NCBI RefSeq assembly: GCF_039555535.1 | Contig: NZ_CP154630.1 | Location: forward strand, 2,927,001 to 2,991,000 | Direction: 5' to 3' | Length of the DNA: 64,000 nt | From: Stenotrophomonas maltophilia | GTDB lineage: Bacteria > Pseudomonadota > Gammaproteobacteria > Xanthomonadales > Xanthomonadaceae | Part shown: positions 51,173 through 51,692 of the stretch, piece after piece | Layout of the letters: the number at the start of each line of letters is the position of its first letter | How positions within the stretch are numbered: position 1 is the first letter of the stretch | Notes under the pieces: generated by a model | Database searches by the model: none | Told to the model about the DNA's origin: nothing | The model's input: only the letters and a program-made list of their open reading frames with translations | Made by a program: the position numbers and the translations under genes

Positions 51173-51692
51173 GGCAGGGCTTGCAGCCCTGCACCTGCTC
51201 AATGCAACAGCAACGGCAACGGCAACGGCAAAAGCGAGCTATCCGTGGGGTGGCGGGGCGGTGTCGGAGTGCGGGGACGCCGCAAGTACGTCCCTGTAGG
51301 CTTGGCAGCGACATCCATGCCGCTGACACCCCGCAATCCGACACCGCCCCGCCTTCGACAGGTTCACGCGGCTGTTGGTAGGTGTCGACCTTGGTCGACA
51401 CATCTGTCAGATATCGATACACAAAAATGGGGTCAGATCCGTTTTCCTTCGGAAAACGGATCTGACCCCACGAGATGTTCCGACAGATTGCGGCCAACTG
51501 TCGAAGGCGGGGTGGGTCCGGTTGAGGGGGCGTGAGCCGCATGGATGCGGCGACCGAGCTTACATGGACGTACTTGCAGCGTCCCCCGCAACCGGACCCA
51601 CCCCGCCAACCCACGGATAGCCAACTTCTGCTGTTGCTTCTGCTGTTGCTTCGGCCCTGGCTTGCAGCAGGTGCAGGGCTGCAAGCCCTGCA
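51173..51692. repeat. complete composite nested inverted-repeat element (520 bp), best-preserved copy
   Basis: Terminal hairpins GCAGGGCTTGCAGCCCTGC (from 51174) and GCAGGGCTGCAAGCCCTGC (51673-51691) bound the element. Two opposed stem-loops lie inside: arms 51252-51276/51329-51353 (25 bp, one mismatch, 52-nt loop) and 51506-51530/51583-51607 (25 bp, one mismatch, 52-nt loop). Between them are an ACCTTGGT palindrome (51377-51401) and the 41-nt GGGGTCAGA palindrome. The flanks mirror each other (GAGCTATCCGTGGGGT against its complement at 51606-51622, and CAACGG-type runs against TGTTGC-type runs). No gene is seen. Confidence 0.88.
51429..51469. repeat. 41-nt GGGGTCAGA palindrome
   Basis: The same arms as the copy at 22567 (GGGGTCAGATCCGTTTT) but a different 7-nt loop (CCTTCGG), at the centre of the composite element. 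Confidence 0.9.

Follow-up and report, generated by a model that had tools for sequence, protein, structure and literature searches.

Dispersed three-way-junction repeats with twin CsrA/RsmA-type hexaloops in Stenotrophomonas maltophilia and other Gammaproteobacteria

Introduction

CsrB/CsrC and RsmX/Y/Z are many-site small RNAs encoded by few loci. The repeat arms described here resemble them in their GGA-loop hairpins and in having sites at distances that one dimer can span, but each of their units bears only two sites, held on a long stem, and approximately 130 copies are scattered through the genome, many of them head to head. For CsrA itself, SELEX gave the consensus RUACARGGAUGU, mostly in six-nucleotide hairpin loops with ANGGAN contacts, according to two reports (PMC4347634, PMC7652899), the second of which describes one CsrA dimer bridging two sites 10−63 nt apart, best above 18 nt. 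Xanthomonads are reported to be without rsmB (PMC3937308). In the related genus Xanthomonas, RsmU (sRX061) of X. campestris is described as an RsmA-binding RNA (PMC7694677); we liken it to the arms by that description, and it differs in being one locus, situated in a 3′ UTR and reported there from Xanthomonas only. The same report states that RsmU bound RsmA in vitro even with all four GGA motifs changed, so the binding of RsmU involves more than its GGA loops.

Among the catalogued families, TwoAYGGAY (RF01731) and the reverse complement of Bacillaceae-1 (RF01690) are hairpins with CsrA-type loops, and both have been proposed as CsrA-binding on the same kind of loop evidence as is used here (PMC4333381). 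Yersinia sRNA 224 (Ysr224, RF02770), a weak relative and the closest Rfam entry, resembles the arms in the core sequence of two of their hairpins, P2 and P3, and in being multi-copy, but its model describes the CCAT strand, opposite to the GGA strand of the arms, and lacks their long stem, P1. Ysr224 ranks within the 20 most prevalent bacterial sRNAs, and in Y. ruckeri several of its copies are reported as transcribed (PMC9029176, PMC12112432). At the DNA level, REP/SMAG elements and BIMEs are likewise palindromic, intergenic and arranged in head-to-head pairs. A REP is defined as a 20−40 bp palindrome with a GTAG or CGTC head (PMC3733652); the arms, in contrast, are three-way junctions of approximately 102 nt with no such head. 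MITEs share with the composite their non-coding nature, inverted terminal parts and high copy number, although no target duplication could be defined for the composite at the orthologous loci read and no parent transposon was seen between the paired arms of this genome. In the open-access literature, we found no account of the composite, nor of any dispersed repeat that binds CsrA.

The composite and its copies in the window

The window is a 64 000-nucleotide stretch of the S. maltophilia genome (RefSeq GCF_039555535.1, contig NZ_CP154630.1, positions 2 927 001−2 991 000). An earlier note, made from the letters of the sequence, had described one element of this window as nested inverted repeats in mirror order, and this plan was borne out: a palindrome stands at either end, followed inward by flanks of CAACAG/CAACGG repeats, a pair of 25-bp stems that close 52-nt loops, and smaller palindromes in the centre (table 1). 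As a single strand, its 520 nt fold at −378 kcal/mol, against −214 (s.d. 7) for shuffled sequences, which is 23 s.d. better. What the note missed were two CsrA/RsmA-type hexaloops on one strand, and relatives across the Gammaproteobacteria. Its statement that the element is not a plain SMAG/REP holds for the arms, which at approximately 102 nt and headless fall outside the REP definition, but not for the centre, where there are GTAG REP/SMAG-type palindromes that resemble the REP classes described for Stenotrophomonas (PMC2817692).

Three loci had been said to share this layered plan. Two of them do, whereas the third retains just one stem-loop. All three do sit between genes, as claimed, and by our own gene calling each is flanked by two minus-strand genes.

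Table 1. Features of the composite and of the other copies in the window (window coordinates).
Feature	Position	Strand	Remarks
Whole composite	51173−51692		two arms head to head, REP-containing centre between
Left terminal palindrome (GCAGGGC..GCCCTGC)	51174−51193		
CAACAG/CAACGG repeats, left arm flank	51204−51230	+	
Left arm, B-type P1, three-way junction	51252−51353	−	GGA strand minus
Left arm P2 hexaloop C-AGGGAC-G	51289−51296	−	
Left arm P3 hexaloop C-AUGGAU-G	51312−51319	−	
GTAG-type REP (GTAGGTGTCGACCTTGGTCGACAC), centre	51378−51401	+	
Perfect palindrome, 20-bp arms (TGGGGTCAGATCC..), centre	51428−51470		
Right arm, A-type P1, three-way junction	51506−51607	+	GGA strand plus
Right arm P3 hexaloop C-AUGGAU-G	51540−51547	+	
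Right arm P2 hexaloop C-AUGGAC-G	51563−51570	+	23 nt after P3
CTTCTGCTGTTG repeats, right arm flank	51625−51648	−	
Right terminal palindrome	51673−51692		
Second composite	32750−33258		arms 32831−32932 (GGA strand minus) and 33076−33179 (GGA strand plus)
Third composite	22440−22852		right arm 22683−22784 intact (GGA strand plus); left arm a 17-nt remnant, 22514−22530
Single arm, absent from the earlier note	17908−18011	−	G000:C1:2944908-2945011; between convergent genes; GGA strand minus

The arm as the repeat unit

The unit that repeats is the arm of approximately 102 nt, in which a stem of approximately 25 bp (P1) closes a three-way junction with the hairpins P2 and P3. Two covariance models agree on 132 arms in this genome, the second adding four weak matches; the figure derives from 138 matches of the first model once five shadows on the opposite strand and a weak match (3622110) had been removed. 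Recurrence of the layout elsewhere in the genome had been set beforehand as a test, and the layout does recur: 82 of the 132 arms form 41 head-to-head pairs, with 50 arms standing singly. Paired arms are 127−262 nt apart with one exception at 865 nt, and arms that are not paired with each other are at least 1.9 kb apart. The exceptional pair (L144, G000:C1:3076963-3078033) has stems unlike the common types and encloses a KDPG-aldolase-like gene (named by eye). Since the one wide pair encloses a gene of this kind, an autonomous element with its gene between the arms was rejected. No related transposon was seen between paired arms in this genome.

Covariation and wobble pairs point to one strand

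Aligned, the arms of this genome (44 of 45 located arms) give a three-way junction in which 23 of 38 pairs are changed on both sides. Across a wider set of 59 arms, from this genus and others, drawn from 63 listed arms with L062, L089, L116 and L173 left out, 37 of 40 pairs are changed on both sides. The sequence of P1 differs by lineage, yet 95.5% of its cells are paired; a count of 95.6% of cells paired compares with 39−47% when slid.

The GGA strand, which is the strand reading outward from the composite centre, carries P1 mismatches that are mainly of the G-U rather than the A-C kind. In the genome under study the ratio is 74 : 6 (distinct contexts 49 : 6, p = 9 × 10^−10; a looser count gave 77 : 11), for the 26 arms that come from other genera in the family it is 18 : 0 (17 : 0, p = 8 × 10^−6) and for 86 arms of other Gammaproteobacteria it is 39 : 11 (35 : 9, p = 5 × 10^−5). 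Read on the opposite strand, the same G-U mismatches would be A-C. The arms of this genome and of the family were found with an opposite-strand model, so ascertainment bias runs counter to this result. REP stems, taken as a control, gave 5 : 2, a count too low to serve as a comparison, with two of the five consensus stems wrongly set. The folded arm is thus under strand-specific selection, and the excess of G-U over A-C on one strand means that it is a single folded strand, most simply RNA, that is selected. G-T pairs form in single-stranded DNA too, so the wobble bias alone leaves room for a transposase that reads a DNA hairpin. On these sequence patterns, the arms very probably act as RNA. 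The structured RNA/DNA locus that the earlier note offered as one possibility is strongly supported by the covariation and the strand-specific wobble together.

The loops match CsrA/RsmA sites

Read outward, P2 and P3 end in C-[ANGGAN]-G hexaloops, as in the published CsrA/RsmA element. With the hairpins located by their stems alone, both loops had this form in 124 of 131 located arms of this genome (132 tested), in 24 of 25 located arms from other genera of the family (26 tested) and in 71 of 78 located arms from other Gammaproteobacteria (86 tested), although the last set was found with a model that already contained GGA loops and its loop conservation is therefore partly ascertained. Hairpins were located by Watson-Crick stems plus the lower P2 pairs; allowing G-U in the stems led to wrong hairpins, with 42 of 132 arms fitting. 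The two N positions of the loop vary, while the remaining loop positions hardly do so. Among arms with two sites, P3 and P2 are 23 nt apart in 126 of 129 from this genome and 79 of 80 from the class, a spacing within the 10−63 nt that one CsrA dimer bridges.

The full 12-nt SELEX consensus RUACARGGAUGU occurs exactly in 13 of the 86 class arms on the GGA strand and in none on the other strand; no exact copy is present in the 132 arms of this genome. The form UACANGGANGUA is fitted by 40 of 132 arms here and by 61 of 86 in the class. Plain minimum free energy (MFE) folding recovers both C-G closing pairs in just 28 of 129 arms of this genome and 37 of 80 of the class; P3 closes in 115 of 129 and 78 of 80, respectively, and P2 is a weak hairpin that closes in far fewer. 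Both GGA motifs stay free of pairing in 74 of the 129 arms here and 45 of the 80 class arms, while both hexaloops are fully open in none of 129 and two of 80, a rarity explained by A-U pairs that close inside the loop, which makes this test too strict.

A CsrA gene is present in this genome. Across the class, a CsrA match was found in 70 of 75 arm-bearing and 243 of 294 arm-less genomes (p = 0.012, phylogeny ignored); among the 314 good genomes, the figures were 61 of 62 with arms and 219 of 252 in which no arms were found (p = 0.004, phylogeny ignored). In five of the 75 arm-bearing genomes, including one that is 98% complete, CsrA had no match. Taken with the loop evidence, the arms are most likely CsrA/RsmA-binding.

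Distribution beyond this genome

A covariance-model search of further genomes had been suggested in the earlier note, and when run it placed arms in at least 31 of the 119 family genomes (from 15 of 54 genera) and in at least 75 of the 369 genomes from the class Gammaproteobacteria (66 of 271 genera), the latter being a lower bound because at most 10 candidates per genome were scored and the filters were strict. The class set of 86 arms came from 29 genomes and comprised 60 hand-picked matches plus 26 loci out of 28, the two dropped being L244 and L256, which are short and have shifted coordinates. Carriers by the 42-nt loop pattern, among the matches listed, include Xanthomonas, Arenimonas, Marinobacter, Shewanella, Alteromonas, Microbulbifer, Methylotuvimicrobium and Ectothiorhodospira. 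Our work on named loci was based on 80 loci among the matches listed, where 16 of 22 close neighbours were head to head, five opposite-facing and one a tandem pair. In Xanthomonas sp. LMG 31884 and X. euroxanthea (L420, L391), four arms stand in short arrays of alternating orientation. The twin-loop pattern is also present in two viral contigs (L461, L462, IMG/VR). The right arm of the window with some of its flank had no match at E ≤ 10^−5 in plasmid and phage collections.

Among the catalogued families, the Ysr224 model gave 73 matches at E ≤ 10^−3 in this genome, none above the gathering score, and 0 of 21 genomes passed the gathering threshold, with nine of 21 having matches at E ≤ 10^−3. 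The possibility, raised earlier, that the element belongs to a catalogued repeat is thereby realized weakly, by a family that scores below its gathering cut-off. At E ≤ 10 RF01731 matched none of eight loci, and at E ≤ 0.1 none of 20 from the class. The RsmY and PrrB_RsmZ models exceeded their cut-offs in 0 of 21 genomes, and the RsmW model matched L079 at E = 5.2 only. A conventional RsmY in this genome was considered and rejected: there were three weak matches (3603043−3603123 and 3604247−3604354, both at L463, and 4807143−4807279), and the first two, which were inspected, end in ordinary gene-end terminators. Matches to Rfam families of the miRNA type were taken as chance matches to long hairpins.

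Orthologous sites

At the 51173 site, 25 loci were readable (that of this genome and 24 from relatives), and under a strict pattern 11 had two arms, 10 had one and four had none. Of these four, L208 and L209 have no element, L194 has a solo terminal palindrome and L205 has arms broken by inserts. At the 32750 site, 14 of 28 loci had two arms, 10 had one and four had none. Seven of 60 orthologous loci were without one flank. A solo terminal palindrome stands alone at one locus of each of two sites (L194 and L229, the latter degraded); these, together with the empty L208 and L209, fit deletion as well as insertion. The comparison of occupied and empty sites that had been proposed thus yielded two loci without the element and two with a solo palindrome, and no target duplication could be defined. 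As far as the pattern reads, the A-type arm keeps its side while the B-type stem varies by species, as expected from conversion between copies.

P1 is near-identical (by eye) among several copies inside single genomes, for example G209 and G241, and on this sequence pattern P1 families look to have been amplified inside some genomes. A passive mobile element, as suggested earlier, is possible in view of the dispersed copies and these apparently amplified families, but neither a transposase nor a recent insertion came to light among the paired arms and orthologous loci read, and no target duplication did so either.

Gene context

By our own gene calling, the 41 pairs of this genome lie in 17 convergent, 20 tandem and four divergent contexts, the 17 against four giving p = 0.007 for equal odds. 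An element serving convergent genes in both directions was rejected on these counts and on the tandem setting of the three window copies. Single arms of this genome between tandem genes are split evenly, with eight GGA-sense and eight antisense. A cruder ORF picker, which put many arms aside as ‘inside ORF’ or ‘edge’, gave sense : antisense ratios for single arms of 4 : 11 in this genome, 1 : 6 in class loci, 0 : 2 in family loci and 12 : 14 in the named loci among the matches listed; for pair members, the ratios were 12 : 15, 1 : 1, 2 : 5 and 4 : 7, respectively. If anything, the counts by this caller lean to an antisense excess. A simple cis-acting UTR site was rejected because the GGA strand does not follow the direction of the neighbouring genes; the readings left are a decoy acting in trans and a mobile element.

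Discussion

The reading that we favour, with a probability of roughly 0.6, is that the arms are a dispersed RsmA/CsrA-binding RNA module working as a reservoir of decoys in trans. Each arm would encode a small RNA domain in which the long stem P1, free in sequence but kept in pairing, presents the short hairpins P3 and P2 with their C-G-closed ANGGAN hexaloops set 23 nt apart, and a single CsrA/RsmA dimer could then take both loops of one arm. The head-to-head arrangement would provide one arm in the binding sense whichever way a composite is transcribed. Approximately 130 arms in one genome make an action in trans the most likely one, and the dispersed arms would together form a reservoir of RsmA decoy sites. 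From the fold, the strand and the loops we infer that the arms would be expressed, bound by RsmA and active as decoys.

A rival reading is an interspersed repeat at the DNA level, REP/BIME-like or MITE-like, in which an HUH/RAYT-type transposase reads the folded top strand, the arms are its hairpins, the outward pairs are BIME-like and the GGA loops are a DNA recognition signal or coincidence. Dispersed copies, near-identical P1 stems in several copies of single genomes (by eye), head-to-head pairing like that of BIMEs, the lack of co-direction with genes and the true REPs in the composite centre would all suit such an element, as would G-T pairs, which are tolerable in single-stranded DNA. 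Yet the arms have no GTAG/CGTC head, the sole gene between paired arms is KDPG-aldolase-like (named by eye), no target duplication could be defined, and the loops fit the CsrA consensus at both its fixed and its free positions, with the exact SELEX 12-mer in 13 of 86 class arms; on balance we regard the DNA repeat as unlikely. If the arms are instead a structured RNA, their partner could conceivably be another RNA-binding protein or an RNase, given that the strand-specific selection stands independently of CsrA and that CsrA is named as partner from the motif match alone. We think this quite improbable, because the arms match the published CsrA site in their fixed and variable loop positions, loop size, closing pair and paired spacing alike. 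Bidirectional terminators, 3′-end stabilizers or supercoil/gyrase sites between genes would accord with the 17 convergent against four divergent contexts among the 41 pairs and with the several copies that abut stop codons, but they would leave the loop consensus and the wobble strand unexplained; moreover, the three window copies and 20 of the 41 pairs are in tandem contexts and no U-tracts follow the terminal hairpins (by eye, in the copies printed), which makes a function of this kind very improbable.

Beyond the decoy reservoir itself, we raise as a tentative and somewhat doubtful extension that the arms are widespread, multiplying, minimal CsrA-decoy RNA genes, that is, CsrA-dimer-sized units on lineage-specific stems, often head to head and so direction-independent. 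In this extension, a hundred-odd copies might replace the sponge in xanthomonads, which reportedly have none of the CsrB/RsmB type, or a selfish element might use CsrA to spread. Were the decoy reading true, this would be an interspersed bacterial repeat maintained by folded-strand selection for binding to a global regulator, and it could help to account for why Ysr224, an unexplained Rfam family, is so abundant. It would also set approximately 130 RsmA-site-like arms in one genome beside RsmU, described as one Xanthomonas locus (PMC7694677).

Inserts and flank repeats

Smaller multi-hairpin inserts of two kinds were seen in composites L183, L197, L198, L199, L205, L210, L214, L217, L222, L224 and L234, as well as L016 and L019, several of these being known by short tags alone. 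Where read, the inserts occupy the P2 or P3 loops of arms, in several species, and some of their hairpins again show AGGA in the loop (by eye). The number of CAACAG/CAACGG flank repeats differs among copies (e.g. L002), and CAACAG/CTGTTG repeats have grown to long runs in L002 (approx. 1430−1530), L234 and L236, which could serve as a variable-number marker.
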